Virus record (IMG/VR): IMGVR_UViG_3300025083_000288
Coordinates: 1-20,358 of that record
From: a virus
Direction: 5' to 3' (one strand)
Length of the DNA: 20,358 nucleotides
This document shows, piece by piece, positions 1,541-20,358 of this stretch. Numbering within the stretch: the first letter of the stretch is position 1; each line of letters starts with the position of its first letter. The translations under genes were made by a program, and so were the position numbers. The notes under the pieces were generated by a model. That model had not been told where the DNA came from, ran no database searches, and worked only from the letters and a program-made list of their open reading frames with translations.

Positions 1541-1544
1541 ATTA

Positions 1545-1820: not shown

Positions 1821-1832
1821 TTTATATATTTT

Positions 1833-4252: not shown

Positions 4253-4276
4253 AGTGTAAATATAATAAAAAGAAGG

Positions 4277-4308: not shown

Positions 4309-4322
4309 TTTTTAGTTAATTA

Positions 4323-4898: not shown

Positions 4899-4920
4899 TT
4901 TTTTTTATTTTTAAAAGTTA

Positions 4921-4954: not shown

Positions 4955-4961
4955 ATATTAA

Positions 4962-5969
4962 TTACGCCATATTATCAGGTGTGTAGTACACAGCCAATTT
5001 AGCATCTTTCAATGCACAACCGATTGAGTAAGCTACACGGAAACGATATTCTTTGTTATCGTTAGAGTACCATTGCTCTACTGAGTTCTCGCTGAAGTCT
5101 GTTGCAACAACGAAAGCATCTTTAGTAGTTAGCATAGCTCTGTGAGTTTCAGCAGCGTTAGAAGCACCGTTGATGTTTGCAACGTTAGCAGCAATAGCTA
5201 CGTCCCAATCTCTACGAACAATGATAGGAATACCTCTGTAAGTAAGTTGTGGAACACCATTAACCATAGCACCATAACCTGCTGCTGCAAAGTTAGAAGA
5301 TTCTAAAGTTGCAGCCATATAATCATCAGCAACATCGCCTGAAACAATGTAAACGTGATTTCCTGCTTCTAATAATTCAGGTGCAGCGTTATCATAAAGA
5401 CCTTTTAAAATCTCAAGACCTTTACCTGAAGCTAAAGCAGCATCAGAACCTTGAGAAATAGTATCTCTGTTGATTTTGTTTGCAGTAACAGCAAAAGCTG
5501 CATCAAACAAACCATCGAAATCTCCAAAAGCACCTGATGCTGAAGTATCAGATAACCAAAGGTGCTTGTTAAAGTCAGACTTAACGCCTTGACCAATCAT
5601 TTCTAATAAGATGTTCTTAACAACAGTTCCTTCAACATTGTCAAAGTCGTGTCCACCTCTCATAAGCTGACCTTTGATTTTGTTGTATAAAGAATCTCCT
5701 GCGAAAGCAATCTCTGCTTCTCTACGAACAGGAGTAATTGTTACAGTATCGCCTATCTCTCCTGACTCTCCTGCGAAAGCACCTGAAGCGAAAGCGTTAG
5801 TAATTCCACCAATAGCCTTAAACTTATCAACAACGATTGTTCCTGATACGTTAGGCATTACGTCCATATAGGACATATAATCTTGACCCATAAATAATGG
5901 TTCTAAAATATACTTACTTACGTCATACGACTTTACAGTAGGTAAATTTGCACTTGTATAAGTTGCCAT
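4962..5969 (-). CDS. Major capsid protein (HK97-fold)
   Basis: A 335-aa protein of the size and composition of a HK97-fold capsid subunit, directly after the protease-scaffold gene. It begins at ATG 5969 in an AT-rich leader. It shows an N-terminal arm (LPTVKSYDVSKYILEPLFMG), an E-loop/P-domain-like region with EIAFAGDSLYNKIKGQLM (about residues 88-105), a long spine-helix candidate (VVKNILLEMIGQGVKSDFNK) and A-domain strands near the C-terminus (GVPQLTYRGIPIIVRRDWD about 239-257, then KDAFVVATDF and YRFRVAYSIGCALKD). 'Y.G.PI.....W' and 'R....YSIG.....' are common late motifs of capsid proteins. About 400 copies would form the procapsid shell, with maturation by the neighbouring protease. No N-terminal delta domain is obvious, in line with a scaffold made separately. 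Confidence 0.85.
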   Translation of the reverse strand: MATYTSANLPTVKSYDVSKYILEPLFMGQDYMSYMDVMPNVSGTIVVDKFKAIGGITNAFASGAFAGESGEIGDTVTITPVRREAEIAFAGDSLYNKIKGQLMRGGHDFDNVEGTVVKNILLEMIGQGVKSDFNKHLWLSDTSASGAFGDFDGLFDAAFAVTANKINRDTISQGSDAALASGKGLEILKGLYDNAAPELLEAGNHVYIVSGDVADDYMAATLESSNFAAAGYGAMVNGVPQLTYRGIPIIVRRDWDVAIAANVANINGASNAAETHRAMLTTKDAFVVATDFSENSVEQWYSNDNKEYRFRVAYSIGCALKDAKLAVYYTPDNMA

Positions 5970-5994
5970 AATTTTCTAATTTTTTATTTAATTA

Positions 5995-6372
5995 TTATTT
6001 TAATATTGATTTAGCGAAAGAATCCCACTCATTAACTACAACATCACTTTCGTTGATTGCAGGGTCTGTGTCAGCTTCTACGCTTGTTTCAGTAGCCTCT
6101 AATTTAGCTAATTTAGCTTCCATCTCAGAAATCTTGTTAGTTAAGTCAGTAATTGTACTTTCTTTTTCTCCAACAAGACCTGCTAGTTCTTCTTTTTCTT
6201 CTCTTAAAGATGTAGCGTTTTCTTCAAGTTCCTCGAACTTGTTTACCACAGCTTCATTGTCAGAAAGAATAACGGAAACTTCTTCAACAGGAGATGAAAC
6301 TTCTTCTCCTTTAACAGCGTTTAAGATTTCCTCTTTAACACCATTGAACCAAGTTTTTAATTCTTCAGTCAT
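5995..6372 (-). CDS. Possible internally started scaffold protein (nested in protease gene)
   Basis: An in-frame ATG at 6372 begins MTEELKTWFNGVKEEILNAV and would give 125 residues. It covers exactly the coiled-coil, acidic C-terminal region and none of the protease domain. The preceding bases (AATAATAAAACAAAA) look like the A-rich, low-structure leaders of other genes here, more so than an ordinary coding stretch. Phage lambda makes scaffold Nu3 from inside gene C by the same arrangement, so a free scaffold form is plausible. It remains an inference without expression data, and the ATG could simply be an internal Met. Confidence 0.4.
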   Translation of the reverse strand: MTEELKTWFNGVKEEILNAVKGEEVSSPVEEVSVILSDNEAVVNKFEELEENATSLREEKEELAGLVGEKESTITDLTNKISEMEAKLAKLEATETSVEADTDPAINESDVVVNEWDSFAKSILK

Positions 6373-6996
6373 TTTTGTTTTATTATTAATTAAACTTAAT
6401 TTATCATTAACCTCTTTTTCATTTACATTAGTAAATTTAGAGAGGTCAAATGTTGCTGCTATCTTCATTGGCTCTGTTACATTGTTTACAAATCCAAATT
6501 CAATAGCTTCTTGACTTGATAGCCAAGTTTCTTTATCCATCATATCAGAAAGTTCCTCATAAGTTAAGTCGGTCTTTTTTTGATATATCTCGATAATTTC
6601 ACTTTTTATTTTGTCAAGTAAATCAGCAGTCTTACGCATATCTACTGCTTCTCCTGCCGATTGTCCGAATGGGTTGTGTATCATAAAAAATCCGTTCTCT
6701 GACATTTCAATATTATCTCCTGCCATCGCAATAACAGTAGAAATTGATGCTGCCAAACCTTCAATCTTAATGTTTACAAAACCTCTGTGGGAACGCAAAG
6801 TGTTGTAAATAGCAAGACCGTCAAAAACACTACCACCAACAGAGTTGATTCTTAGTGTAATATCTCTCTCGCTTACATTCTTTACTTCCTCTATAAAGTT
6901 TTTAGCAGAAGTTCCGTAATCTCCTATCTCATCATAGATGGATATTTCAACAGGATTACCGTCTGCTTTGTTTTCTATTGAGTACCATTTGTTCAT
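5995..6996 (-). CDS. ClpP-type prohead protease with C-terminal scaffold region
   Basis: Serine protease of the S14/ClpP-like phage family. Numbered from an upstream in-frame GTG at 7002, the catalytic Ser lies in GLAASISTVIA (about residue 86) and the His in MIHNP (about 109). The third residue, usually Asp before 'WL..EA...G', seems to be E158 or nearby D156 (ETWLSSQEAIEFG). RINSVGGSVFDGLAIYNTLR (51-70) is the classic oligomer-interface strand-helix. Residues about 210-305 are Glu/Lys-rich and coiled-coil-like (EELEENATSLREEKEEL), then an acidic tail, as in protease-scaffold fusions. I start the gene at ATG 6996 rather than GTG 7002. It would cleave scaffold and perhaps itself inside the procapsid, just before the capsid gene. 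Confidence 0.85.
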   Translation of the reverse strand: MNKWYSIENKADGNPVEISIYDEIGDYGTSAKNFIEEVKNVSERDITLRINSVGGSVFDGLAIYNTLRSHRGFVNIKIEGLAASISTVIAMAGDNIEMSENGFFMIHNPFGQSAGEAVDMRKTADLLDKIKSEIIEIYQKKTDLTYEELSDMMDKETWLSSQEAIEFGFVNNVTEPMKIAATFDLSKFTNVNEKEVNDKLSLINNKTKMTEELKTWFNGVKEEILNAVKGEEVSSPVEEVSVILSDNEAVVNKFEELEENATSLREEKEELAGLVGEKESTITDLTNKISEMEAKLAKLEATETSVEADTDPAINESDVVVNEWDSFAKSILK

Positions 6997-7019
6997 AACC
7001 ACAAATATATTATTAGTTA

Positions 7020-7036
7020 TTTCGCTATATGCGAAA
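7020..7036. promoter_or_regulatory. Palindrome between HTH gene and protease gene
   Basis: TTTCGC (7020-7025) and GCGAAA (7031-7036) form a perfect inverted repeat around the five bases TATAT, in the 53-base gap between the small HTH gene's stop and the protease ATG. It could be an operator half-site pair, a weak RNA hairpin or chance. The adjacent gene encodes a candidate DNA-binding protein, which makes an operator worth considering. Confidence 0.3.
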
Positions 7037-7049
7037 AAGTTTACAATAC

Positions 7050-7370
7050 TTATCTTATATTGTTTATTCTTTTGCTTTTCTTGCTTTCTTTATATACTAC
7101 ATTCTGACAAGTCCTATCTGAAACATCATACTTAATAGACAAGTCCATAAATGTATGTGTGCTGTGTCCTAAGTTTTCTTTTAGTATTTTGTGAAAGTCA
7201 GATATAATCATATAGTTTCTTAACCTTTTAGGCTCTACAAGACCTTTTTCAATCAAGTGAAACACAACATTCTTTATACCTGCATCATCAGAATACTTAG
7301 ACCTAATCTCTTTATACATTAATTCTAAAAACTCATCAACCACCTCTTGTTTATTTTGTCTTATAGCCAT
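7050..7370 (-). CDS. Small helix-turn-helix protein of unknown role (106 aa)
   Basis: Starts at ATG 7370, 12 bases after the tape-measure stop. The protein is helical and basic. The C-terminal part (about residues 72-95: THTFMDLSIKYDVSDRTCQN, then VVYKESKK) has the spacing of a helix-turn-helix: an L-S-I-K-Y 'A-K-x-x-G'-like turn, V-S-D-R-T leading into a recognition helix, and a Lys-rich end. This resembles the Mor/C-type and Sigma-70 region 4-like transcription activators of phages. The N-terminal half (VVDEFLELMYKEIRSKYSDD) is a helix that could mediate dimerisation. Its place in the middle of the structural operon, between tail and head genes, suggests a late-gene regulator or a protein that binds DNA during packaging. 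Specific function unknown. Confidence 0.6.
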   Translation of the reverse strand: MAIRQNKQEVVDEFLELMYKEIRSKYSDDAGIKNVVFHLIEKGLVEPKRLRNYMIISDFHKILKENLGHSTHTFMDLSIKYDVSDRTCQNVVYKESKKSKRINNIR

Positions 7371-7382
7371 AGTTCAAATATA

Positions 7383-10300
7383 CTAAAAAGTAGCCTGACT
7401 TTCAATAGCAGATACTTTACCTTGTGTTTTTGTTACATCACTCTCAACCATTATAACTCTTTGAGATGTTTGCTGTTGAGAAATCATACCTTGAATATCA
7501 GCCAACTGACCACCTCTAGCAAACTTTTCTCCACTATTCAGAAGTCCACCATCAGCAAACTTTACTCCGTTTCCATTGTAGGAGTTTATAGCAGAAAGAA
7601 CAGGCTTGAACATAGATGTTGAACGCTTGTTTATAATAGCTTCTCCACCTTCTGCTTCGTGTATTCTACCACCTACTGCAAACTTTACACCACCGTTAGC
7701 GTGAGAGTTACCTCTAAACATTCCACCTTTAGTAAGACCACCATTAGCAAACTTGCCACCTTCTGTTACAGTTTTAGAATCTCCTCCACCCATACCTCCA
7801 CCAAACATAGATAGTACAGAAACCACAACAGCTAAAGTTGCAGCCATAGCAGCTATGTTTTCAGGGAATGGTCTTGCTGCCTGTTTGGTTACCCCTTCCC
7901 CTGCATTTGCACCCATCTTTACCAATGATGTTGTTGTTCCTGCTTCATCTGCTTTTGTTTGCAGTATTGTTCTTAATGTTTCTATATTTTTAGCAACAGC
8001 AGCAGCTTGTGATAACTTAGTCCCTATCTTTGTAAGAACGTGGTTTTCTCCCATAATATTACCAAGCTCAGACATAGAAGAACCTAAATCATCAACAGCC
8101 TGTATTCTTTCTTGATTTGCTTGTTTTTCTAATTCTATTGCATCTATATCTAATTGCCTTTGAGCATTTTGATTTTCTAAATATGCTTGGAAATCTTGTG
8201 CAATCAACTCTCCCTTCTGACCTAAGAACCACGCTTCTAAATCAAGCAACGCTTGTTTGTGTTGAAGCTCAGTCATAAGCTCATTAGTAAAGTCCTCGTC
8301 AATCTGAAGCTTTCTATCTTCTTTTTCTTGTTTTAAAGCATCTAGTTTTAGCTTGTTAGTTTCTTTTAAAAGTTTATCACGCTTTTTCTGTATTTTTAAA
8401 TCCTCTTTAAGACCATCTTCTCCCATCTTCATATTAAGGAGTTTCATAGTTTCAAGATGTTTTATTTCTTCTTCTAACTGAAGTATGTTTCTATCACTTT
8501 CAAACTTGTATGATTCATTACCTATATCAAGTAGTGCCTTAGAATGTCTTTGAGCTTCTTCTTCTATTTGAGCAGTAACAGCCTTTATGTTAGGGTCATC
8601 GCCTGAACCCTTCTTCCCTGTTGAGAATAAATCTCCGATAGAAAGACTTGTTGATTCCCCTTTTTTTAAAATTAAATCCATTATTTTTTGTTGCTCTTTT
8701 TCAAAGTAGCCATCTTCTAATGTATCTAAAAATTGTTGAAGGGTTAATCCTGACTGCTCTAATAAAGCATCTAACATATCAACATCTGCAAAAAGCTCTT
8801 GTTCTGTTCCTGAGCCAAACATTCCTAATATAAAATCATAAACAGTACCACCGACATCTTGTGTTAGCCATTGCCTGAAAGAACTCATTTCCTCAAGTTC
8901 CTTTTTCATTTCTGCTATCCTTTTAGGGTCTAGCTGAAAATTCTCTCCTAAAGCTTCTTGTATCATATCAGACTGAACAGTCATACTTATAAGCTCTTTG
9001 TTGAGGTCGCCAAATGCTTCTACTAGCATTTTATTTGTCATAGCATCAATAAGACCACCACTACCTGATATAGCTTCTGTGATTTTATCTATATTGTCTT
9101 TTTCATCTATAAGCTCTAGGTTATGAGTGTTTAACAACTTATTGAGAGATGCTATTTCAGACTTTTCTTTTTTTCTTAGTCCGTCAAGTATTTTTCTTGT
9201 TGAAGCGTTGTCATTTAATAACTTCCCTTCTTTATCTGTAAGCTCATTTATTCTTTCTCTAGTTCTAGCTAAAGATTTAAGATTGGTTTGAGCTTCAACT
9301 ATTCCTTCATTGCTAGTTTTAGTTGCCTTTGTAAGTTTTGAAGTCCAACTCTCAGCTTGTTCCAACCCACCTGCATACTTAATCATACCTGCAATAGCAG
9401 TACCTATAAGAACAACAAAAGCACCTATACCTGTTTTAATGAGAGCTGTTCTAAATAAATTAACAGCACCTGTTAATCTAACAGTTCCACCAAAAGCTAA
9501 GTTTATAGCAGTATTATATAGAAAAAGACTTCCTTTAGTCCAAGCAAGAGTTGCAAGAGAAGCAGCCTTAACACCAATAGTGTAAAGCAATATTGCTTTT
9601 ACTAAAGTGCTTATGGTTTTTGCAACCTTTGATATTCTTTTTATGCTTTTTTCACTAGCTAAATTATTAAAGAACTTAGCAAAAGAATCAAATCTTTTTT
9701 GTAAGTTTTCTCCAAACAAATCAACTAAAGCAATCTTCAGTCCGTCTGTTGCTGACTTAAAACGAAGCATAGCACCTTGTAAGCTATCTCCTACAATTTC
9801 AGCCATAGCTTCTGCTGCACCCTCAGAGTTTCTTAGTTGCTTTGTTAGGATAGCCACACCATCTGCACTATCTAACATTCTACCAAAAGCAGCAGCAGTT
9901 CTTCTGTCCGTAATACCTAAAACATCAGAAAGAGCAATACCCTCATCTTTCATAGCTTTTAGTCTTGGTAAAAGCTCATCAACAGACTTTACAGAGCCAC
10001 CTAATCTTTTAGAAAGTTTTGATGTTGGGTCTGCTAGTCTTAATAATATGTTTCTTAAAGAAGTACCTGCAATAGATGCTTCGATACCTGCATCTGTAAG
10101 GGAAGCTAATATCGCTGTTGTACCTTCAATTTCAAAACCTGCCATCTTTGCAATAGGTGCAACCTTTGTCATTGATGTTTGAAACTTCTCAATATCTAGT
10201 GCAGAACTTGTAAAGGCAGATGCCATAACATCTGCAACTCTTGTTGCTTCACTTGCATCAAGACCAAAACCTCGTATAGCAGAACCCATTACCGTTGCTG

Positions 10301-10907
10301 TTCTTGCTAGGTTCTCTCCTGTTGCAGTAGCAGTTGCTAATGTTGCACCCTGTGCTTGTAGTATTTCTTCGGCAGTAAAACCTAGTTTAGACAGGTTTGT
10401 TTGCAGCTCGGCTACCTGTGTTGCAGTAAAGAATGTTGTTCTACCTAATGCTTCAGCAGATTCTTTTAGTCTTTTAAACTCCAAGTCAGTTGCACCACTA
10501 ATAGCTCTAACCTTCTGCATTTGAAAATCAAACTCCTTAAAGACATTTATACCGTCTTTCATTTGATTAGCAAGGAAGCCTACAACTTTTTGAAAACCAT
10601 TAACAGCTAGTTGAGCAACCCCAAAAGCAGTAGCCATCTTCATAGTAAAGCTAGTGGTCTTTTTGGTTTCTTGTTGAACTTTTTGCTGCTGTTTAGTTCC
10701 TTCTCTAAACTCTTTTCTTTGCTTTTTTAAAGTGTCTGTAAGCTGAAGAACGGACTTCATATTTTCCTGCTGACCTTCTTTGTCTGTCTTTAGAGCTTTC
10801 TTCTTTTCCTTTAACTCCTTAGAGGTGGCTTGTATTTGATTGTTTAATTCAACAAGCTCTTTAATACCTAATACTCGTACTTTAAAATCTAAATTTTCTC
10901 CTGCCAT
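7383..10907 (-). CDS. Tail tape measure protein (TP901 family)
   Basis: A 1174-aa protein with the layout of a siphovirus tape measure. Residues about 20-90 are a Lys/Gln/Glu coiled coil. The TP901 core spans about 130-330 (MQKVRAISGATDLEFKRL, GRTTFFTATQVAELQTNLSK, GIEASIAGTSLRNILLRLAD). Hydrophobic segments lie near 440-515 (GAFVVLIGTAIAGMIKYAGG) and 1030 (ATLAVVVSVLSMFGGG), with a further coiled coil at about 796-875. The C-terminus carries four KFAxGG repeats and a basic, Ser/Thr-rich tail. It sets tail length and helps DNA entry; by the common estimate of about 0.15 nm per residue, the tail would be near 175 nm. It starts at ATG 10907, coupled by TAATG to the gp10-like gene. Family assignment is confident. 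Confidence 0.92.
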   Translation of the reverse strand: MAGENLDFKVRVLGIKELVELNNQIQATSKELKEKKKALKTDKEGQQENMKSVLQLTDTLKKQRKEFREGTKQQQKVQQETKKTTSFTMKMATAFGVAQLAVNGFQKVVGFLANQMKDGINVFKEFDFQMQKVRAISGATDLEFKRLKESAEALGRTTFFTATQVAELQTNLSKLGFTAEEILQAQGATLATATATGENLARTATVMGSAIRGFGLDASEATRVADVMASAFTSSALDIEKFQTSMTKVAPIAKMAGFEIEGTTAILASLTDAGIEASIAGTSLRNILLRLADPTSKLSKRLGGSVKSVDELLPRLKAMKDEGIALSDVLGITDRRTAAAFGRMLDSADGVAILTKQLRNSEGAAEAMAEIVGDSLQGAMLRFKSATDGLKIALVDLFGENLQKRFDSFAKFFNNLASEKSIKRISKVAKTISTLVKAILLYTIGVKAASLATLAWTKGSLFLYNTAINLAFGGTVRLTGAVNLFRTALIKTGIGAFVVLIGTAIAGMIKYAGGLEQAESWTSKLTKATKTSNEGIVEAQTNLKSLARTRERINELTDKEGKLLNDNASTRKILDGLRKKEKSEIASLNKLLNTHNLELIDEKDNIDKITEAISGSGGLIDAMTNKMLVEAFGDLNKELISMTVQSDMIQEALGENFQLDPKRIAEMKKELEEMSSFRQWLTQDVGGTVYDFILGMFGSGTEQELFADVDMLDALLEQSGLTLQQFLDTLEDGYFEKEQQKIMDLILKKGESTSLSIGDLFSTGKKGSGDDPNIKAVTAQIEEEAQRHSKALLDIGNESYKFESDRNILQLEEEIKHLETMKLLNMKMGEDGLKEDLKIQKKRDKLLKETNKLKLDALKQEKEDRKLQIDEDFTNELMTELQHKQALLDLEAWFLGQKGELIAQDFQAYLENQNAQRQLDIDAIELEKQANQERIQAVDDLGSSMSELGNIMGENHVLTKIGTKLSQAAAVAKNIETLRTILQTKADEAGTTTSLVKMGANAGEGVTKQAARPFPENIAAMAATLAVVVSVLSMFGGGMGGGDSKTVTEGGKFANGGLTKGGMFRGNSHANGGVKFAVGGRIHEAEGGEAIINKRSTSMFKPVLSAINSYNGNGVKFADGGLLNSGEKFARGGQLADIQGMISQQQTSQRVIMVESDVTKTQGKVSAIESQATF
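7510..7770 (-). repeat. Four KFAxGG repeats in the tape-measure C-terminus
   Basis: Within the last 130 residues of the tape measure, KFANGG, KFAVGG, KFADGG and KFARGG recur between Gly/Asn-rich linkers and a basic 'EGGEAIINKRSTSMFKPVLS' stretch. At the DNA level the plus strand repeats GCAAACTT near 7519, 7556, 7678 and 7748. Such Gly-rich C-terminal segments are common in TP901-type tape measures; the regularity here is higher than usual. Confidence 0.7.
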
Positions 10908-11401
10908 TATTTCTTAGTTGCTTTTCTAAATTCTGTTTTTATTATATCTCCAAACTTCTTCTGAAGTTGATTCTTTATTCCCTTCTTACTAAATCCTACA
11001 ACACGATTTATATATCCTTTTCTATATCCGTTGTTAGAGTATTGGTTGCTACCTTTTGTAGGAGTACCTTCTATTTCAATACGAGCAATAATAGCTGCTG
11101 CTATCTGATGCTTTTCATTTTCGTTTGAGTATGAAATCTTTTTATCATCTATCCAATCAAGTATAGCATCTAGGTTGGGTGTATGAGGTTTTGTACCATC
11201 GTTTACAGCCTTTGAATAGTTTGTCTTTGATGTTATACTAATACTTGCTTCTCCACCCTTAAAAACGACCTTATGTTTTGTTGTGTCGTGTAGCTTACCT
11301 GTTGCAATATGCCCTTGATTTACCAACTCCTTACGAAATCTTTTAACAAGAGTTCTTCCTATTTCATCTAGCTCTCTGCCTATTTGTTCTTGTATTTTCA
11401 T
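10907..11401 (-). CDS. HK97 gp10-like tail completion/minor tail protein (164 aa)
   Basis: Starts at ATG 11401 and is joined by TAATG junctions to both neighbours. The motif NYSKAVNDGTKPHTPNLDAI (about residues 80-99), then LDWIDDKK, with an N-terminal Arg/Lys-rich helix (GRELDEIGRTLVKRFRKELV) and a 'Y-A-xx-VxxGTxPHxP' core, matches the HK97-gp10/Mu-gpG-like virion morphogenesis family. These proteins work at the head-tail interface or in tail completion. The C-terminal 40 residues are strongly basic (GFSKKGIKNQLQKKFGD). Here it sits upstream of the tape measure and downstream of hub-like genes, whereas the usual place is just after the connector genes. Confidence 0.7.
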   Translation of the reverse strand: MKIQEQIGRELDEIGRTLVKRFRKELVNQGHIATGKLHDTTKHKVVFKGGEASISITSKTNYSKAVNDGTKPHTPNLDAILDWIDDKKISYSNENEKHQIAAAIIARIEIEGTPTKGSNQYSNNGYRKGYINRVVGFSKKGIKNQLQKKFGDIIKTEFRKATKK

Positions 11402-12363
11402 TATACCGATTTAGATTGTGATGCTAATTTAATAATTGAATTTTCTACTTTAGTTAGGCTTTTATTCATAGCACCGTCATAAGCAGAAAAGTGCCATACC
11501 CCACCATTAAATGATAAATCTATATTTCCTGTTCTTCCAAATTGGTCGAAAACAAAATCACTTGTAGGGCAAGTTTGTGTTCCTACCTCAACACCATTTT
11601 CTCTTATTGTTAATTGGTCTTTTTTTCTTACAACAGATATTAGCAATGGATTTGATGATGGGGTGTAATAATATGTAGATGAATCAAATTGAACGGTGTT
11701 AGATGAGTCAAACTTCATTATATAGCTCTTGTTACTTGCATCTCCTGCCGACAAAAACATATCATTATCGTCAGACTTACCCAAGAATCTCATATACTTA
11801 TTTACAGGGTGTCCTATTATACTAACATAAAAGAACATTGTAAAATCTCCTGAAAGTGTAACAGCAGAGTTTAATGACATAAAACTACTATTGTATAAGC
11901 TAAAATAAATGGGAGATTGATTGCTAACACCTTTACCATATTTTCCTAAACTAGGCATATTAGCAGATGTGGATTGAGAAAAAGCAAATGAATCATAGCT
12001 ACTTGCCCATTTAGAAACAGACCCACCACTTGAATAAACCTTATGGTTGTAATTGAATATGCAAACAGGGTTTATCTTTGTTGTTGTCTTTGTTGTTACT
12101 GTTCCTGACTGTGGAGTTGTTGTTGTAACTTCTTCTTCTTCCGTAAATACGGTTTGTGTTTTAGATGTTGCTTTAAGCGAATCTTGTATTCCAACCCTAT
12201 AACTATTTGTTATTTTTAAGTCAGAATAATTTGAGTATGTGCTTCCACTATCATTATACCCCTCTCCTGACTTGTAAACAACTTTTACCAACGCACCATC
12301 AACAGTACAATAAACATACTTTGATAAAGAATCTTCTCTTTGTTTTTTATATATTTTTGACAT
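11401..12363 (-). CDS. Tail protein with C-terminal LamG/concanavalin-like domain (320 aa)
   Basis: Starts at ATG 12363 (TAATG overlap with the hub-like gene). The N-terminal about 70 residues form a small domain (YVYCTVDGALVKVVYKSGEG). A low-complexity linker of Glu then Thr (TEEEEVTTTTPQSGTVTTKT) follows. From about residue 100 to the end the strand pattern is that of a LamG/concanavalin-A-like sandwich (TLSGDFTMFFYVSIIGHP, FLGKSDDNDMFLSAGD, LLISVVRKKDQLTIRENGVE, then WHFSAYDGAMNKS). Such domains bind host glycans or protein partners. I infer a tail-tip or minor tail adhesin. The linker suggests the lectin domain was appended to a smaller tail protein. Identification rests on motif pattern, not a database match. 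Confidence 0.65.
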   Translation of the reverse strand: MSKIYKKQREDSLSKYVYCTVDGALVKVVYKSGEGYNDSGSTYSNYSDLKITNSYRVGIQDSLKATSKTQTVFTEEEEVTTTTPQSGTVTTKTTTKINPVCIFNYNHKVYSSGGSVSKWASSYDSFAFSQSTSANMPSLGKYGKGVSNQSPIYFSLYNSSFMSLNSAVTLSGDFTMFFYVSIIGHPVNKYMRFLGKSDDNDMFLSAGDASNKSYIMKFDSSNTVQFDSSTYYYTPSSNPLLISVVRKKDQLTIRENGVEVGTQTCPTSDFVFDQFGRTGNIDLSFNGGVWHFSAYDGAMNKSLTKVENSIIKLASQSKSV

Positions 12364-14945
12364 TATAAATTTAACGAATCTGAAATGTTCATAACTAAAG
12401 TAGAGCTAACCTCTTTTTTACCCAAATCAAGATACTCTACAAGCTCAACCTTTGTGCTTTGCTTTAGGTGTGGTTTAAAATCAATTATCTTGTTTATCCT
12501 GTAATAATTACCATCTATAAAAACAAGTCTTGTAAAGTCAAGAATAGCCATATCCGTATTACTTAAATTAAGATATATTGTTTTTATTCTAGGTTTTTGT
12601 TTTAGCTGCCCAACCATTTTAGAGTAAAAAGACTGATACAAACCAATATGCGTTTGACTTCCTTGACCTGAAAAATCGTAAGTGATATTATTAAAAGACA
12701 GGTTAGGGTCTAACGACAATGTAGAGCCATTGTAAGTTCCTGCATCTAACTGCACAAAAGAATCAAATGTATCGTTGTTGTCTGCACTATTTTTAGCACT
12801 ATCCAAGTGAAAAAAGTTAGCTCTACAAAAATCAGTCTGAAAAGCGTTAGAAGCAACAGCTTCTCCATTATTGTTGTAGGAGTACCCTGTTCTTATACCT
12901 GACTGACTACTCAAATATTGATTAGCACCTGAATAAACAGGAAGCGTTATTAATACCCTAGCACCTATGTTAAATTCTTTCTCAGCTCTTTCTACACTCC
13001 GTTTAGAATCTATGTTTGTAAACTTTGTGTGATAAACAGGAATAAAAGGTCGTCTTGTAAATGAATGACCAACATCTTGGTCAATATAATCCCCCTCGTA
13101 CCAATTAAAAGAAGGAGAAAAGTATTTATTCTCAACCTTGTATGTTCCGTCTGCAAAAACTCCATCGTCATTTAGCTCTCTGTAAGAACCCCAATCAGTA
13201 TCATTTTTCTTGTTAAATCTTTCTAAAAAAGCATCTCCTGAAGCATCTTTATATTTTATTATTAGCTCTGACTTTATATCGTTTATAAACTCATCTTCAA
13301 TAGGCTTTGAATAGTCTATTTTAGAAGTCCAATCTCTAGCTTTTGTGTAGTCTTGATAAAAATAATCGTAAGGCTCAACCTTTACTATCTTTGATTTAGA
13401 ATCGGTAAAGAATTGAAGATTAAACATTTGAGATATTCCTGATACAAAATCAGACTGCTTACCCTTTGGTAAAAGGAACTGAACAGGAGAGTAGTCCTCC
13501 CCTACATTAATAGTGTCATTACCTTTAATCTCCATAGTGCCATTTTTATAACCAAATTTAACGTGTCCACCATCAAAAGCTGCATAATCCACCATTCTAA
13601 CAGAAACTGTAAATATAAATTTTCTACCAACTTCTGTTGAATCAATTTCTACTTCATCATTAAAGTTCTCAACAGAATCGTGGTCGCCATTTTTAACGTG
13701 AGTTATAGTTCCACTATCCCATTTTCTTATTATGTTTGGGTTTGTGTTGTTTCCGTTATTGCTATCTTCTACTGCCTGATAAAAAGAATTTATATCTTGG
13801 TCAAGGTCATTATCAACCTCCCAAATCTCTCCCCTTAGCTTGTATGTCATAGAGCCACTACTAGCACCACTATCCCTGTAATGACGAAAGTCTATATTAA
13901 AGTCTATTGTATGAGTTCCTGTTTCGTTTATAACCAACATTGTATGTGAATTTAAAGTAGGGTGTGTATTACCACCTGTCTGAACATTTCCTGTTGATGT
14001 GCTACTAGGTAGTGGGGAGTCGTCTAAAGCAAAATTACCACTAAAAGGGTATCTTGCTGCAACATTGGTATTATCTGTTAAGTAACCCCACCTACGACTT
14101 ACTTCAATGGCGTTATACCCTATATGAGGAACGGTTGAAATAGCAGGGTTACTATCGTGAAAATAGTGTGCTGCCTTTGTATATCCATCATTTTTTTCTA
14201 TCTTTCCGTACTTATCATTTATAAGTTCTGATTGCTTTTCAAAGTTAAGTGGAACTATCAATGATTTAAAGTATTCGCTATTGCAAAACTCACTATCAAC
14301 TACATACCCCTCTCCCTCAAATATCTTATCCCAAATATTTTTTACATAAAGGCAAGGAACAAAGTCTGCATCTGTTACCTGATTCCTAGAGCTAACACCC
14401 TCTCCAACAGATAGCAAAGGAAATAATGGTTTGTCAGAGTCGGCATTAAATGTTGCAGCATCTCTAGCGTTACCTGAAAGACCTTGCATATTCTCAAAAA
14501 CATAACCTGTGTTTCCACCACCACTTGTATTATCAAATGTAAGCTCTTTGAGGTCTTTGTTTTTTATCTTAGATGCCCAATCCATATTGTCTGAAAGAAA
14601 ATTACACTCATACTCCAAAGGGTCTTTTCCTTTAAGAATTTTTGTTATTTTCAGCGTTCCTGAAACTATCGGAATGTTATCAGAATATATTGTTGAAGGC
14701 AAAGAACCCCTAACATTTTTTTTATCTATATTACCGTCTTGATAAATATGGTTTAGCAGCTTGTTGTTTCTCTTTGTTGCAGGAACTTTAAAGGTTTTAC
14801 TAAAGCCACCGTTTCTTGAGTTAAAATCTCTAATGTCAAAATTTTGATAAGTTAAAGATAAAGGGAACTCATCGCTTGAAGTAATATCAAGGTCGCCCAA
14901 TGTATTTTTGTCAAAATCTCTTAACTCTATTCTTATTTCAGCCAT
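12363..14945 (-). CDS. Hub/baseplate-like tail protein (860 aa)
   Basis: Starts at ATG 14945, coupled by TAATG to both neighbours. The N-terminus has FPLSLTYQNFDIRDFNSRNG, then GFSKTFKVPATKRNNKLLNH (about residues 27-66), an arrangement typical of large tail-hub proteins of Bacteroidota phages in my recollection. From about 490 comes FLLPKGKQSDFVSGISQMFN, then LQFFTDSKSKIVKVEPYDYF, a hub-like segment with a 'DFxxGIxxxFNLxFxTD' pattern. Between them, about residues 305-480, lies a Thr/Asn/Gly-rich beta region (MLVINETGTHTIDFNIDFRH) that looks like an inserted beta-sandwich. The gene lies upstream of the tape measure, as a hub or distal tail gene often does (though normally on the far side). 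It probably forms the tail tip to which adhesins attach. Confidence 0.55.
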   Translation of the reverse strand: MAEIRIELRDFDKNTLGDLDITSSDEFPLSLTYQNFDIRDFNSRNGGFSKTFKVPATKRNNKLLNHIYQDGNIDKKNVRGSLPSTIYSDNIPIVSGTLKITKILKGKDPLEYECNFLSDNMDWASKIKNKDLKELTFDNTSGGGNTGYVFENMQGLSGNARDAATFNADSDKPLFPLLSVGEGVSSRNQVTDADFVPCLYVKNIWDKIFEGEGYVVDSEFCNSEYFKSLIVPLNFEKQSELINDKYGKIEKNDGYTKAAHYFHDSNPAISTVPHIGYNAIEVSRRWGYLTDNTNVAARYPFSGNFALDDSPLPSSTSTGNVQTGGNTHPTLNSHTMLVINETGTHTIDFNIDFRHYRDSGASSGSMTYKLRGEIWEVDNDLDQDINSFYQAVEDSNNGNNTNPNIIRKWDSGTITHVKNGDHDSVENFNDEVEIDSTEVGRKFIFTVSVRMVDYAAFDGGHVKFGYKNGTMEIKGNDTINVGEDYSPVQFLLPKGKQSDFVSGISQMFNLQFFTDSKSKIVKVEPYDYFYQDYTKARDWTSKIDYSKPIEDEFINDIKSELIIKYKDASGDAFLERFNKKNDTDWGSYRELNDDGVFADGTYKVENKYFSPSFNWYEGDYIDQDVGHSFTRRPFIPVYHTKFTNIDSKRSVERAEKEFNIGARVLITLPVYSGANQYLSSQSGIRTGYSYNNNGEAVASNAFQTDFCRANFFHLDSAKNSADNNDTFDSFVQLDAGTYNGSTLSLDPNLSFNNITYDFSGQGSQTHIGLYQSFYSKMVGQLKQKPRIKTIYLNLSNTDMAILDFTRLVFIDGNYYRINKIIDFKPHLKQSTKVELVEYLDLGKKEVSSTLVMNISDSLNL

Positions 14946-17227
14946 TATTTTATAGTTCTTTTCTCTTTACTTTCAACATAGTTTACGGTCATAGTAGATT
15001 GATTCTCACTATCAAAACTTGTAGTAGTAGCATCTTTTATGTTTACAGGAACATAGTAGTGTCTGTTTAATGTGCTATACCAACCACCTGCTGTCGGCAA
15101 ATCACTCTCATACTCCCTAACCACAATATAGTCAATCATAGTTCTACCTGCTTTTGAATCAAATTGTAAAAGTATTAGTGGTGCAAAAAACTCAACATCT
15201 GCGTGTGCGTTAGCAGGGTCTTTAGGGTCGTTGGACTGCCCTTGAAAAGACTCTGATGTTGAAGAACCCTCTGCCAACCTACCTGTTATATACCCTCTGT
15301 GTACCTCCCATTCGTTATCAGTATCTTGGTCGTAGCCATTTAGCGTAATGTAGTGCTGAGAGCTATGGGCATTTGCACCACTTGTGTTTACTAATGTCGT
15401 TCCGTCTGCTGCAATACCTCCTAATCCAATATAGTTTGTAGCAGCAGCATCTTGATACTGAACTTTTATTCTTACCTCAACCTCATATATTTTATTTGGG
15501 TCGTATGGAAACTTCTTGGCTTTAGCAATCGCCCAAACGTCATCGGCAGGGTCGCCACCACTAATATCATTATCGCCTTTTAAATAAGCACCTGTACCTG
15601 CTGTATGTCCGTTTGAAGTTGTTATTTGGTCTGTATTACCACCCTCGTAAATATACGTTCCTGAATACGTAGTCCAATCAGCTTGTAAAGCTGTGAGGTC
15701 ATCGAAGTTATCCCTAAAGACCTCTTTTCCTCTCCAACCTCTTTCTACCCATACATTAGGAGATGACAGTAAATCTTCCATCATAGCTTGTTCTTGTCTT
15801 GGATAAGGTCGTGATACTGCCTGACCCTCTCTAAAGGCTTTTACAACGGATTTAGACACCCCCCTATATTCATCTGAGGTCAATCCACCAACTCTAGGGA
15901 CTAAAGCACCGTAATTATTCTTAACATTAGGTAGATTACCCTGCCAAATACTATCACTTGAACTTGGTTGTCCTAATTGACTTTGAAAGTCAGGATATAT
16001 AGTCTGCTCGTAAGTTTTTGAAGAAACATTTATTCCCTCAGTAGCTGTTCCATCAAAAGTGTAGCTATCAATACCACCTAACCTGTTTTGCCAATGAAAC
16101 CTTACAGATTGACCAAAATATTTTTTATCTTCCGACTTGTGGTCTATATAGTAGTACATCATTTGACCTATTTCTCTAGTTTCTGCTGATGTGTAAAACT
16201 GAACTGTATAGTATTCAACATTAGACCAATCTCCAAATTTTGGAAGGTTATCATTAGTGGTATTAGTCCAACCAACTATTGCTTCTCTTATATTTCTTGT
16301 TCCAACGCCAATCTGAAACACACCAAGCTCAGGCTTGTTTGAATTAAAGTCGTTTGTGCTAGTGCTTCCTCCCCAATGAAAAACACCACCTGAAGCACTA
16401 TAATTGCCATCTCCCCTAGCAGAGCTGTTTAAAACCAAAGATAATGTTTGACCCAACCCATTTGTAAGAAGGCTTCCATCTTTAAAATAAATCCTAATCT
16501 GAGCATAAGGATAATCTGTACCATCTCCCTTATCCATAATAGCACTCAAGTATTCGCACTCGTCAGTTCCTATTATCTTGTAGTTAGGCTTTAGTGTAAG
16601 ACACCTAACCCTTTCATTAGCGTTATCTTTACTAAAAGTAAATGCTTTTGATAGAGAATCATTTTGTTCTTCGCTAGCTGTGCTTCCTGACATTGCATTA
16701 GACAATACCAAGCTGTGTTGTTCTTCGTGAGATAAAGCTACATTAGCAACGAAAAAATTATGTGTTATGTCTAAACTAGTATCTGTGGTAAGCTGACCAC
16801 TAGAATTTACATACTCAGGTCGCATACGAACACTAAACTCCTTAAACATATTATAAGAGGGCATTGACTGAGTTATATCTCTTTGAACCTTATCGGTAGT
16901 GTCGTGAGTACAAGCTCTTAAATCATACGAGAGGTAATCCCTACACATACTGCTTACATCTAAGCTAAAGTATTTGTATGTGCCATCGTTAGCTGTTGCA
17001 GTAGCACCCCAATTATGTATGTATGTACTTGGCTGAACCCTAATAAATGTTTGATTTTCGTATTCATAATCGTTAGTCCTAGAGTTTCTAGGTGTTATAA
17101 TAAACTGAACACTTTTATAATCTCCTAACTCTGCTCCTTGAAGCCTTGATGTTAGTTTTATAGGCTCGTATGCAGATATTAAAGCATTTGTTATTGGTTG
17201 GTCAATAATTATTTGTGTTACTGCCAT
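14945..17227 (-). CDS. Large tail protein with inserted carbohydrate-binding-like module (760 aa)
   Basis: Starts at ATG 17227 (TAATG overlap with the LamG-neck gene). Residues 1-500 are beta-rich (QIIIDQPITNALISAYEPIK; YKYFSLDVSSMCRDYLSYDL), with VRFHWQNRLGGIDSYTFDG near 375, a conserved-looking core segment. Residues about 501-705 (15115-15715) differ: FRDNFDDLTALQADWTTYSG, then AYLKGDNDISGGDPADDVW, YEVEVRIKVQYQDAAATNYI and VEFFAPLILLQFDSKAGRTM have the shape of a galactose-binding-like jelly roll. The flanks (LLSSPNVWVERGWRGKEVF before; GWYSTLNRHYYVPVNIKDAT after) seem to belong to one fold split by this insertion. Probable tail-tip or side-fiber component binding host polysaccharide. Function inferred. 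Confidence 0.55.
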   Translation of the reverse strand: MAVTQIIIDQPITNALISAYEPIKLTSRLQGAELGDYKSVQFIITPRNSRTNDYEYENQTFIRVQPSTYIHNWGATATANDGTYKYFSLDVSSMCRDYLSYDLRACTHDTTDKVQRDITQSMPSYNMFKEFSVRMRPEYVNSSGQLTTDTSLDITHNFFVANVALSHEEQHSLVLSNAMSGSTASEEQNDSLSKAFTFSKDNANERVRCLTLKPNYKIIGTDECEYLSAIMDKGDGTDYPYAQIRIYFKDGSLLTNGLGQTLSLVLNSSARGDGNYSASGGVFHWGGSTSTNDFNSNKPELGVFQIGVGTRNIREAIVGWTNTTNDNLPKFGDWSNVEYYTVQFYTSAETREIGQMMYYYIDHKSEDKKYFGQSVRFHWQNRLGGIDSYTFDGTATEGINVSSKTYEQTIYPDFQSQLGQPSSSDSIWQGNLPNVKNNYGALVPRVGGLTSDEYRGVSKSVVKAFREGQAVSRPYPRQEQAMMEDLLSSPNVWVERGWRGKEVFRDNFDDLTALQADWTTYSGTYIYEGGNTDQITTSNGHTAGTGAYLKGDNDISGGDPADDVWAIAKAKKFPYDPNKIYEVEVRIKVQYQDAAATNYIGLGGIAADGTTLVNTSGANAHSSQHYITLNGYDQDTDNEWEVHRGYITGRLAEGSSTSESFQGQSNDPKDPANAHADVEFFAPLILLQFDSKAGRTMIDYIVVREYESDLPTAGGWYSTLNRHYYVPVNIKDATTTSFDSENQSTMTVNYVESKEKRTIK

Positions 17228-18390
17228 TATATACTGTATTTATGTTTTAGGTAGTCTGTTAATTCTTTTATCTTTCCATCTTCAAAGGCACTTCCAAATA
17301 TTATTATCTCCTGCATAGAGCCTTTGAAAAATCTAGCAGTTAATGAAGAAGAAGCACCCAATGTTAGTTTTCTGTTTGAGCCATAGTCTGAGAAGCTGTC
17401 AAAAGAAGGTGCTGTTTCACTATCTATCATTGTCGTATCTTTGTATATCTTAGTTGTCTTATTATTAAATGTTGCCACAAAAACAGACAAAGTGTTTGAC
17501 GAGTGTGTGCTACCACTATTTACACTAGCATCATCTCCATCGTCATCTTCATAGTTTGTTTGCCAAAAATTACTTGCATTAATGTCTATATAGAATTGCC
17601 TTGTGTTTGCAATACCATCATTCTTAGCTAGAAGGTAGCCTTCTTGACTATCGCCCTTAGCCACCCAAGCTATTGTATGGTCTTTTGGTATTCCACTACC
17701 TGAGTTTATTCCACCGTTTACACAGGTCATAAAATCGTTAGTACCATCAAAAAGAAGGTAAGGATAGTTGTTTTCCGTTATCTCATACTTGAATTGTGGC
17801 ATCTTTATTGCTGTGGCTTGTTCAAAGTGATTTCCGTTACCACTTTGGTCTATCCACTTGCTTACAACTTCGTTGCCACCACTAAACGAGGTCTTAACAC
17901 CCATATCGCTACGAAGCCATACCAAAGGACTTAGATTAGTTATAGACGACTCATCTGTAAATGTAAATGAGTGTGAAAACGCATTAAGAGTAAAACTAAG
18001 TCTGACTTGTATCAACTTGTCGTTATATAATTCTTTTTCTCGTTCAACAGATATACTGTCAGGACTTAATATTACTTCTTTATTTGCGTAACTGTCTAAA
18101 ACTCTTTGTAGCCAACCTAACGCTTCTTGCTCTAGTAGTGTGAACACGCTATCAAGAGAACCTGCGTGGTTCTGATGATATGGTTTTACTATTAGACACT
18201 CATAGGAGTATTCTTCCTGAACATCTCCTTCGGTTGTGGGAAGCACCGATGTTGGTGGTAAGACTAACAATAATGGGTAGTCGTTGTTGTGGTTTTCGTT
18301 GATTTCGTTCTCGTAACCAAAGATAAAGCCACCGTTTATCCATTTTTGTTCAAACCTGTTAGTTAATTCTCTTAATTTATTAAAACTCAT
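17227..18390 (-). CDS. Tail-completion-like protein with C-terminal LamG-like domain (387 aa)
   Basis: Starts at ATG 18390, overlapping the chaperone stop by one base. Residues 1 to about 145 form one domain (KLRELTNRFEQKWINGGFIF, then YECLIVKPYHQNHAGSLDSV, FTLLEQEALGWLQRVLDSYA), with an alpha/beta pattern like a tail terminator or neck protein of a Bacteroidota siphophage; this is a tentative fold guess. Residues about 155-387 are a clear LamG/concanavalin-like lectin sandwich: LSPLVWLRSDMGVKTSFSGG, WIDQSGNGNHFEQA, YLLFDGTNDFMTCVNGG, then LTLGASSSLTARFFKGSMQE, then IIIFGSAF. Joining a tail-assembly domain to a lectin domain is unusual and would display the lectin at a defined place on the tail. 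Cellular partner unknown. Confidence 0.65.
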   Translation of the reverse strand: MSFNKLRELTNRFEQKWINGGFIFGYENEINENHNNDYPLLLVLPPTSVLPTTEGDVQEEYSYECLIVKPYHQNHAGSLDSVFTLLEQEALGWLQRVLDSYANKEVILSPDSISVEREKELYNDKLIQVRLSFTLNAFSHSFTFTDESSITNLSPLVWLRSDMGVKTSFSGGNEVVSKWIDQSGNGNHFEQATAIKMPQFKYEITENNYPYLLFDGTNDFMTCVNGGINSGSGIPKDHTIAWVAKGDSQEGYLLAKNDGIANTRQFYIDINASNFWQTNYEDDDGDDASVNSGSTHSSNTLSVFVATFNNKTTKIYKDTTMIDSETAPSFDSFSDYGSNRKLTLGASSSLTARFFKGSMQEIIIFGSAFEDGKIKELTDYLKHKYSI

Positions 18391-18701
18391 TATTTCTTAA
18401 CTTGTTTACTCTGTTCTTCTTGTACTGCCATCTCAAAGTCGCTTTTTGATGTTTTCCAAGATAAATATGTCATTACTTTATACAATTTCTCATCTTTTAC
18501 ACTTTGTATTGCATCTTTACCTTTGTTTGTAAAAATACCGTCTAAAGCTATGTCATATAGAGTGTTTAACCAACCATAAGGCTTCATTATCCTACTAGCC
18601 TTAACTACTGCTACACTTTTTGAGCTTCCTTCCCTAAAAAGGTTTGGATAACGTTTAGTGAGTTGCTCGTTTGCCTGTTCAAAAAAAAAGCGAACTCCCA
18701 A
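18390..18701 (-). CDS. C-terminal part of tail assembly chaperone, reached by -1 frameshift
   Basis: This frame, whose first possible codon is TTG 18701, has no early ATG and no gene start of its own (the first in-frame Met is residue 39). After a -1 slip on the T9 run, the upstream chaperone continues as FFFEQANEQLTKRYPNLFRE and ends at 18390, giving a fusion of about 288 residues (192 upstream plus 96 here). The C-terminal section is basic and helical (KPYGWLNTLYDIALDGIFTN, then KGKDAIQSVKDEKLYKVMTY). The arrangement is that of lambda gpG/gpGT-type chaperones, in which a long and a short form share their N-terminus. It is separated from the tape measure by five genes, unlike the usual immediate neighbourhood. 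Confidence 0.65.
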   Translation of the reverse strand: MGVRFFFEQANEQLTKRYPNLFREGSSKSVAVVKASRIMKPYGWLNTLYDIALDGIFTNKGKDAIQSVKDEKLYKVMTYLSWKTSKSDFEMAVQEEQSKQVKK

Positions 18702-19255
18702 ACGATGTCCATTGTCAATCTCTTAAAAGCCTTAGCTTTATCGTCTATATTATCCAAATCAACCTCCTCATCAACGGATTTACACAAAATAGCCATCTGT
18801 TCAGGTAAAATATCAAATCTACCGTTCTTTAGGTACTCTGTGTTCATCTCCAACTGCGTACTCTCTATATATTCGCCAAAAGTACCCTCTCTAAAGAAAT
18901 TCATAGGGAAATAGTATATATCTCCTTCAAATTCAAAGTTGGTCATACCTTTTGGCTTGTATTCCTCCAATATGTTGTCTAAAGAACTAATAACAGCTTC
19001 TATCTCCTCAGTCTTTACCTTTTTTACATTCTCCTTACTCATTCCTGTCATATAACAAAATAAATCGTTATACATCTTGATTTCTTGAGTAAAAAAGAAT
19101 TTAGTTAGGTCTTTACCTTCGTCATTCTTGTCTTGTTCCTCAGTTCTCTTATATTTTTGCAATATTTCATAAATACCACAATAATATTCGAGTGTCATTT
19201 CTTTCCAATCGCTTGGAATATCTTTTTGCTTTCCGTTGATGTCTATTACTAGCAT
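18611..19255 (-). CDS. Tail assembly chaperone, short form (214 aa)
   Basis: Starts at ATG 19255, one base after the upstream gene's stop. Helical and acidic in its first two thirds (MTLEYYCGIYEILQKYKRTE), then FEFEGDIYYFPMNFFREGTF and MNTEYLKNGRFDILPEQMAI, a pattern I associate with chaperones of Bacteroidota phage tails. The non-shifted product ends with LNRQTSNSLNVIQTFLGKEA and then stops. The -1 shifted product swaps these last 23 residues for a 96-residue extension. The homopolymer and 91-base overlap make a programmed shift the simplest reading; the pair would guide tape measure and tube assembly. If the true run is T10, this is simply one 288-aa ORF. Confidence 0.65.
   Translation of the reverse strand: MLVIDINGKQKDIPSDWKEMTLEYYCGIYEILQKYKRTEEQDKNDEGKDLTKFFFTQEIKMYNDLFCYMTGMSKENVKKVKTEEIEAVISSLDNILEEYKPKGMTNFEFEGDIYYFPMNFFREGTFGEYIESTQLEMNTEYLKNGRFDILPEQMAILCKSVDEEVDLDNIDDKAKAFKRLTMDIVWEFAFFLNRQTSNSLNVIQTFLGKEAQKV
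18683..18689 (-). promoter_or_regulatory. Probable -1 ribosomal frameshift site (T TTT TTT within T9)
   Basis: Minus-strand codons GCT TTT TTT TTG around residues 189-192 of the 214-aa frame contain the canonical X XXY YYZ slippery heptamer T TTT TTT, in a run of nine T (18689-18681). A one-base backward slip gives TTT GAA CAG and joins the downstream open frame exactly. No strong downstream stem or pseudoknot is evident by eye. Confidence 0.6.
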
Positions 19256-19256: not shown

Positions 19257-19625
19257 CTAATCTTGTTTATACATATCCGAAATCAAGCCTATTGTTTCCA
19301 TTGTAGCTTGAATAACTTTCGTTTCTATGTTGTTTATAAGTCTATAATTACTTCTATTCTTAACTCCTGCCAAAAAACCCAAGAAAGAGTACATTAAAAG
19401 GTTAGGCAACATATATACCCATTCTTCAATACCTCCCTCGTCTTTGACAGCATACTTTCTAAAATCAACATAATATGCGAAAACATCTTCCATCACATCA
19501 GCAAAATCTTGATATTTACCATCTTCACACTCCTCAGTTATAATATATGTCTGTTGTTTGACATAAACTATAAAATCGTTTAATATCTTAGTGTGAACCT
19601 GATTTATACCTTCTATTTCGTTCAT
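19257..19625 (-). CDS. Small acidic hypothetical protein (122 aa)
   Basis: The start at ATG 19625 (MNEIEGINQVHTKILNDFIV) is preferred over the longer TTG 19664 frame, which would add 13 residues with no support. The protein is acidic and helical, with a hydrophobic segment at about residues 75-95 (YMLPNLLMYSFLGFLAGVKN) that could be membrane-associated or a buried helix. It lies between terminase and the chaperone pair, with a one-base gap before the latter. I do not recognise the family. Position suggests a small tail or packaging helper, but nothing in the sequence shows which. Confidence 0.55.
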   Translation of the reverse strand: MNEIEGINQVHTKILNDFIVYVKQQTYIITEECEDGKYQDFADVMEDVFAYYVDFRKYAVKDEGGIEEWVYMLPNLLMYSFLGFLAGVKNRSNYRLINNIETKVIQATMETIGLISDMYKQD

Positions 19626-19636
19626 TATGCAAATAT

Positions 19637-19676
19637 TATCTAAAAAATGTAAAAAGTTTCGCAATTTCTTGTCAAA
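19637..19676 (-). promoter_or_regulatory. Weak candidate Bacteroidota-type promoter
   Basis: In the 69-base gap between the terminase stop and ATG 19625, the minus strand shows TTTG (19676-19673), then 21 bases, then TACATTTT (19651-19644). The latter matches the flavobacterial -7 element TAnnTTTG except at the last base, and the spacing lies within the reported 17-23 bases. AT-rich DNA yields such matches by chance, so confidence is low. Confidence 0.2.
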
Positions 19677-19694: not shown

Positions 19695-20358
19695 TTATCC
19701 AAAGAATACTACTTTTTGCCCTGAAAAATGTCTATTAAGAGCCATAACAAGGCAATCTACCATATCATCGTGCTTCGCAGCAGGAAATGACTGACATTGC
19801 AGTAAAAATTCTTCATTCCAATGCCCTTTCATTAAAGACACCCTTCCTGTTTCTATTGTAGCACTAATATCCTGTACTCTTGCTACTTTATCTTTCGTTG
19901 GTGGCTTATCTTCCTTAATATTCAGTCCTGTTTCTCTAATCAGGGTTTGAACTATTGATTTCCCACTCGCCTTTGGTTCAACGAAAATTTTTGATTGGCT
20001 GGTATATCCGTTTTTGTGTACGAATTTTTTTATGTGTTTGATTAGTTCAGGAAATTCTAACCTCACATTTTGTACTTCGGTTATTTGCCAAGTTTTATCT
20101 TTGTATATATAAGCCATAAGAGCTGATGGGTCGTTCTTGCTACTTGCTGTATATGCAGGGTCAATAACGAAGTTTACCACTCCCTCCTCCTTATCTTTAT
20201 CAATTCTAAACCAATTTTTCTGAAGCATACCGCTATCGGCAGGTGTTGGTCGCTGTTGTAGCTGTCCTGCATATCCATAAGAGCCTAGTGCTGACTTATA
20301 GTCGTCTAGTATAGCCTGAGAAAACCTATCTTTCCAAAAAAGTCCATCTTCATAGTGT
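19695..20358 (-). CDS. terL: Terminase large subunit, C-terminal nuclease part (partial; N-terminus off the right edge)
   Basis: The frame is open at the right edge and ends at TAA 19695. The first visible residues (LFWKDRFSQAILDDYKSALG, then YGYAGQLQQRPTPADSGMLQ) form the linker seen in TerL proteins ('Y..Q.QQRP.P..G..'). The nuclease domain follows: Asp in FVIDPAYTASS, Glu in IFVEPKASGKS, and the late pair in AAKHDDMVDCLVMALNR, which together give the RNase H-like acidic triad. It cuts concatemeric DNA and powers packaging with the missing ATPase half. It is the most upstream gene here and probably follows a small terminase outside the window. The annotated start must lie beyond 20358, so ATG 20228 is internal and not the true start. 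Confidence 0.9.
   Translation of the reverse strand, partial: HYEDGLFWKDRFSQAILDDYKSALGSYGYAGQLQQRPTPADSGMLQKNWFRIDKDKEEGVVNFVIDPAYTASSKNDPSALMAYIYKDKTWQITEVQNVRLEFPELIKHIKKFVHKNGYTSQSKIFVEPKASGKSIVQTLIRETGLNIKEDKPPTKDKVARVQDISATIETGRVSLMKGHWNEEFLLQCQSFPAAKHDDMVDCLVMALNRHFSGQKVVFFG

Follow-up and report, generated by a model that had tools for sequence, protein, structure and literature searches.

The window analysed here, by which we mean the whole stretch of 20,358 bases, is the complete IMG/VR virus record IMGVR_UViG_3300025083_000288 and belongs to a marine, uncultivated phage. Its A+T content is about 65%, and the minus strand carries nearly all genes. In order of transcription on this strand, a partial gene for the terminase large subunit, a 135-aa gene, a frameshift pair, and a gene for a 387-aa LamG-type protein are followed by genes for 760-, 860-, and 320-aa proteins, a Neck1/HK97-gp10-like protein, and the tape measure, and finally by a 106-aa gene and genes for a ClpP-like head protease, a probable major capsid protein, a 191-aa protein, and the portal (Table 1). 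The head genes (protease, capsid, and portal) come after the tail genes and the tape measure (window 1–11401, minus strand), and this tail-before-head module order is unusual where the terminase leads the cluster. Another run of nine identical bases (T9 on the plus strand, A9 on the minus strand) was observed at 4898–4906; it is noncoding and lies immediately 5′ of the start of the 191-aa gene. The best matches of the terminase were Croceibacter phages, and those of the tape measure included Bacteroides, Cellulophaga, and Flavobacterium phages. From these matches, a Flavobacteriia host is likely.

In the frameshift pair, the zero frame and a −1 frame overlap and are joined at T TTT TTT within a T9 run, and the coordinates, phase, and sizes given for them in the original prediction were exact. 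The joining motif is a heptamer of the X XXY YYZ form and is present in the zero-frame phase. On the minus strand, the −1 frame stays open between 18725 and its stop at 18390. The addition of one T to the run produced a single continuous frame of exactly 288 aa, in line with the predicted fusion of about 288 aa, and the predicted junction-spanning peptide of this fusion is WEFAFFFEQANEQ. The second frame had been described as having no start of its own. This held for ATG, which is absent from the −1 frame 5′ of the junction, but not for all start codons, as a TTG arising from conserved Val-Trp codons is found at 18701, 12 nt before the run. At the other end of the −1 frame, the ATG of the next gene overlaps the −1 stop in the sequence TAATG.

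Table 1. Coordinates of the features of the window
Feature	Position in window	Strand	Remarks
Terminase large subunit, partial	19695..20357	−	Runs off contig; phrog_38, E 2.8e-41
135-aa conserved gene between terminase and pair	19257..19664	−	No assigned function
Zero-frame ORF, 214 aa	18611..19255 (19255->18611)	−	Short product (gpG-like); kept in 117 scored loci
Nearly frozen TGG GAG TTC	18692..18700	−	Directly upstream of run; TTC in 36/38
T9 slip run	18681..18689 (18689->18681)	−	Zero-frame phase GCT TTT TTT TTG; T TTT TTT in shift phase
−1 frame after slip	18390..18689	−	96 codons past run; C-terminal domain of fusion (gpT-like)
387-aa gene after pair	17227..18390	−	N-terminal part, then LamG/concanavalin-like domain
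760-aa tail-module protein	14945..17227	−	P12024S counterpart, 474 aa
860-aa tail-module protein	12363..14945	−	P12024S counterpart, 754 aa
HK97 gp10-like/Neck1 tail-completion protein	10907..11401	−	phrog_5, E 2.2e-6
Tail tape measure protein, 1174 aa	7383..10907	−	phrog_1533, E 1.3e-55; PF10145, E 2.2e-31

Conservation of the slip run and selection on the two frames

IMG/VR searches with the two frames yielded 92 and 44 relatives, respectively, and a profile search with the −1 domain yielded 241. The run was scored automatically in 117 IMG/VR loci of the window's family, the window included, with identities down to about 30%; overlapping stretches of single contigs are among these loci, so that the independent viruses are fewer than the loci. 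The run was kept in the shift phase in all 117, as T9 in 105 and as T10 in 12. The original prediction had named T10, giving a single ORF, as a refutation. T10 does occur in distant members, but there the additional T sits in the preceding codon (GTT TTT TTT TTG), and the shift is therefore still required. Together with the second family described below, T9 or T10 was in the shift phase in 258/258 scored loci, which strongly supports the predicted −1 recoded pair. Such retention is far beyond chance and indicates that the frame shift is real and programmed, the conserved slip linking the two frames near the end of the first. No prophage or host-genome homologue was found in GTDB genomes.

Outside the overlap, the −1 frame had a pN of 0.114 and a pS of 0.644, corresponding to a pN/pS of 0.176, and the zero frame was looser, with a pN/pS of 0.256. 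By these ratios, both frames are under purifying selection at the protein level, which is strong for the −1 frame. Synonymous differences were reduced in the eleven codons before the slip (0.256 versus 0.769 in the rest of the gene). Both Phe codons of the slip were TTT in all 38 aligned sequences of the family, and the other conserved Phe sites mix TTT and TTC. At the frozen site directly upstream of the run, TTC was used in 36/38 sequences, compared with about 20% of the Phe codons in the gene. The frozen TGG GAG TTC is not needed by the fused protein and does not occur in the second family; these bases may act as a ribosomal stimulator in the window's family. A GTTC/GAAC hairpin around the run was also considered and was dropped, as it is not kept across the family.

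A second family in cultured Nonlabens phages and the layout of the locus

The AlphaFold model of the zero-frame protein (mean pLDDT 77) matched uncharacterised phage proteins in BFVD, including a 175-aa protein of Nonlabens (Persicivirga) phage P12024S. P12024S_38, the only 175-aa protein identified in that genome, is encoded directly after the terminase, and its gene has an overlapping −1 frame with the run CTT TTT TTT TAT. The gene, at 23136–23830, is annotated as two hypothetical proteins, P12024S_38 and the 55-aa P12024S_39, and its −1 frame comprises 83 codons counted from the slip. Scans with the two halves of the gene yielded 320 and 63 relatives, respectively. The run was scored in 141 loci of this second family (140 from IMG/VR and P12024S, with overlapping loci of the same contig included, so that independent viruses are again fewer) and was in the shift phase in every one of them, as T9 in 138 and T10 in 3. 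In 134 of these loci, the stretch from the last −1 stop to the run contains no start codon, and the slip is therefore the only route to the −1 domain there.

Comparison of the window's family with the second family by hhalign gave 98.5% with an E value of 3.8e-15 for the zero frames and 97.0% with an E value of 8.9e-11 for the −1 domains, the latter alignment starting with the FF of both slip junctions. Independent searches with the HMMs of the window's family, at a threshold of E≤0.1, matched 66 and 123 ORFs of the second family, with best values of 1.9e-9 and 1.2e-8, respectively. These alignments indicate that the two families are homologous in both halves and at the junction. The halves of the P12024S gene are held by PHROG_32199 and PHROG_38404, both labelled 'unknown function'. 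Among 50,697 phage records, clear relatives were found only in the two Nonlabens phages, P12024S and P12024L. Like the window, these phages have a homologous zero frame and −1 domain, and a T9 run in the shift phase, and their gene precedes both Neck1 and the 860-aa-type tail protein. They differ from the window in that the identity is low, the likeness being visible only by profile and fold comparison, the zero frame is smaller (175 aa), the run has the phase xTT TTT TTT TAT, and the pair directly follows the terminase without the 135-aa gene between them.

Two further loci were observed in these searches. Flavobacterium phage 6H gp10 gave a weak zero-frame HMM match (E 5.4e-5), and it is followed by a 305-nt unannotated gap with open frames (L168 10047–10927), in which the frames show no clear pattern and no T9 run is used; gp10 and the gap possibly represent another recoded chaperone. 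In L035 10561–11724 (same contig as L104), the −1 frame reads without a stop into the next gene, owing to a one-base insertion relative to the near-identical L037. The insertion is probably an assembly or sequencing error; if genuine, it would join the −1 domain with the protein encoded downstream.

The distance between the pair and the tape measure in the window was measured as five genes and 7.48 kb (18390 to 10907), which agrees with the five genes and about 7.5 kb of the original prediction. There, this distance was considered odd, a view that the wider comparison did not bear out: in both families, the gene lies near or after the terminase and is followed by several tail genes and then by the tape measure. 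In the window's family, one or more genes intervene between the terminase and the pair. The commonest order in the second family (89 loci) was terminase, pair, 138-aa gene, Neck1, and 474-aa protein, and the tape measure, where it could be placed, lay about 4.1–6.2 kb after the pair. Judging from gene order, the distance from the tape measure is the fixed, standard layout of both families. No major tail protein is adjacent to the pair, which lies outside the position between the major tail protein and the tape measure that is typical of chaperone genes, though not an absolute requirement for them.

The −1 stop overlaps the next start by four bases in 60/141 second-family loci, and in nearly all 50 representatives of the window's family the start codon that follows is at most about 11 bases away. 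The arrangement suggests a possible coupling between arrival in the −1 frame and translation of the gene that follows. The N-terminal part of the 387-aa gene occupies the same position as the 138-aa gene of the second family; the sequence link between the two is weak, and their hhalign comparison was not significant. A tail-terminator-like identity of the gene after the pair is tentatively proposed and weakly indicated, with a best HMM E value of 1.2e-4.

With both families in hand, readings of the locus that involve no programmed slip can be weighed. Homopolymer errors are common in sequence data, and the true sequence might be T10 with a single ORF, or the gene might be broken. This is scarcely credible, since T9 was found in all nine contigs of 83–100% identity, which bear different sample codes, and both frames are under purifying selection; the same out-of-frame run in 258 scored loci refutes a sequencing artefact or pseudogene. 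It is also very improbable that the −1 frame is a gene in its own right, translated without fusion from the NTG (TTG at 18701 in the window) twelve bases before the run. An NTG is indeed present in 50/50 representatives of the window's family, and synonymous change is suppressed just upstream of the run; both observations favour such a start. However, the Val codon and the invariant Trp codon behind it inevitably create an NTG, whose first base is T in 39, A in 8, and G in 3, so that ATG occurs in only 8/50; the zero frame, by contrast, begins with ATG in 115/117 loci. A separate start would also leave the retention of the run unexplained. With no possible start before the run in 134/141 homologous loci, it is rejected for the second family and is unlikely in the window's family.

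Ribosomal frameshifting and transcriptional slippage

The original prediction had assumed that the ribosome is the slipping agent. The in-phase heptamer that this assumption calls for is present, but slippage by RNA polymerase fits the data about equally well, and we regard it as a candidate as serious as ribosomal frameshifting. Reiterative transcription at nine or more Ts would generate some mRNAs with U10, on which ribosomes would pass directly into the second frame. The same proteins would result, but by a mechanism unlike that of the characterised tail chaperones. In support of this possibility, to which we assign somewhat less than an even chance, 9 or 10 Ts were present in 258/258 scored loci, although a ribosomal heptamer needs just seven. 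Moreover, in the second family, the seventh T could be replaced by C with both proteins unchanged, yet it was T in 40/40 representatives. Stimulators of −1 frameshifting, which are usual but not obligatory, were scarce. No 3′ stem-loop was detected downstream of the run in either family (mean z about 0 for structures other than pseudoknots), and an SD-like GGAG before the run was found in only part of the window's family. The case for transcriptional slippage in tssM of C. rodentium started from a long homopolymer that lacked SD-like or structural signals (PMC4256274).

The coding regions of the fetched loci of the window's family and the P12024S family were also examined for homopolymers, with expected counts obtained from synonymous shuffles. 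Apart from the slip run, the 1.32 Mb of coding sequence in these loci contained no T run of at least nine, against 12.6 expected, and A runs of at least nine occurred 27 times, against 111 expected. The number of A runs dropped sharply at length nine; it is at nine bases that coding A/T runs are avoided in a large proportion of bacterial genomes (Baranov 2005, PMC1088944). T7 was depleted both in the shift phase (0.61) and out of it (0.48 and 0.69); with depletion equal in and out of the shift phase, the avoidance is therefore not specific to the ribosomal heptamer. The pattern seen here, with T9–T10 always at the slip site and T runs of at least nine avoided elsewhere in coding sequence, is that expected of transcriptional slippage, and the avoidance suggests slippage-prone polymerases in these phages or their hosts.

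On the other hand, every T9 holds the ribosomal heptamer in phase, the encoded amino acids also account for most of the extra Ts in both families, and the avoidance of long runs could come from DNA replication slippage. In addition, published cases of transcriptional slippage run at 15–55% (PMC4256274), which exceeds the few percent that tail chaperones usually reach, and the nearly invariant bases before the run in the window's family may stimulate a ribosomal shift. A ribosome slipping on U UUU UUU would be the conventional explanation; in E. coli, this heptamer is less shift-prone than A AAA AAG (PMC5009743), which, by analogy, would suit a low ratio of long to short form. We estimate that the ribosome alone has about an even chance of being the slipping agent, that the share of the polymerase, acting wholly or in part, is somewhat below that, and that the share of any other mechanism is small.

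The pair as probable tail assembly chaperones

No other recoded gene of long-tailed phages is as widely conserved as that of the tail chaperone. By analogy, the gene described here, with its short 214-aa and long 288-aa forms, probably encodes tail assembly chaperones of the gpG/gpGT type, because its architecture, product sizes, and place in the tail module fit such proteins; the assignment is not one of homology. The gpG/gpGT logic of the original prediction was accordingly retained for these three features, and the chaperone-family match by homology was not obtained. Pfam and PHROG searches with both frames yielded no family match and no PHROG of known function, respectively, and a profile search of both frames against known tail chaperones, which had been proposed as a check, matched no named chaperone family. 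No solved-structure relative was found in a fold search of the PDB. The chaperone-labelled Foldseek matches of the zero-frame model had E values of 0.19–0.59 and were not significant, and the −1 domain, whose model was poor (pLDDT 61), gave two short unnamed fold matches (E 4e-4 and 5e-3). Comparison by hhalign with lambda G/T/U and HK97 gp13 gave no signal, but this test is powerless, as lambda G versus HK97 gp13 also fails in it.

The absence of homology to chaperones and the location of the gene near the terminase, not the tape measure, could also be accounted for by another kind of recoded gene, namely one whose product is a structural protein of the virion and also exists in a minor, −1 extended version, like the extended capsid or tail-tube proteins of some phages. 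We consider this unlikely, since candidates for capsid, portal, protease, tape measure, and Neck1 have already been placed elsewhere in the window and the zero-frame fold predicted by AlphaFold is mostly helical and not a tail-tube fold.

In known tail chaperones, the short form binds the tape measure, and the rarer −1 extended form binds the major tail protein as well; the short-to-long ratio in lambda is about 30:1, and neither form is found in the virion (PMC5009743). If the pair acts as chaperones, the 214-aa zero-frame protein would make up the bulk of expression, and a minority of events at the T9 run would shift to the −1 frame to give the 288-aa fusion with its conserved C-terminal domain. 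As proposed by analogy with lambda gpG/gpGT, the short form would coat the tape measure, the long form would recruit the major tail protein, and the efficiency of the slip would set the ratio between them. The fuller proposal that polymerase slippage on a fixed T9–T10 run sets this ratio, in a chaperone family located near the terminase and not recognisably related to those of lambda and HK97, is put forward tentatively for a large, mostly uncultivated set of phages from marine and other environments; we consider it less likely than not.

The assignment provides a likely function for two PHROG families of unknown function and more than 300 environmental phage loci, and the annotation of the cultured Nonlabens phages is corrected. 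It also shows that, in long-tailed phages, the slip of a recoded gene can persist through changes in the sequence and position of that gene. The nine-base run, avoided in the other genes of the loci and accompanied by no evident 3′ stimulator, offers a clean test case for polymerase versus ribosome slippage.

Thermus dnaX, Citrobacter tssM, and Shigella mxiE/spa share with the present run a homopolymer of at least nine A or T, two products per gene, and no evident 3′ stimulator. The window's run differs from these transcriptional-slippage genes in containing an in-phase ribosomal heptamer and in being known here from DNA sequence alone. Compared with lambda gpG/gpGT and HK97 gp13/gp13-14, the pair has no detectable sequence similarity, though lambda G and HK97 gp13 have none to each other in the same test. 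In those phages, the chaperone gene adjoins the tape measure or a known major tail protein; the pair described here is located several genes before the tape measure and has a T9–T10 slip run. As in lambda and HK97, a short zero-frame protein is combined with a rarer −1 extended form, the overlap is near the 3′ end, and the gene belongs to the tail module and precedes the tape measure. The pair is thus of a known kind by mechanism, that of recoded tail chaperones, but its family is unannotated, has a distinct layout, and slips at a homopolymer.
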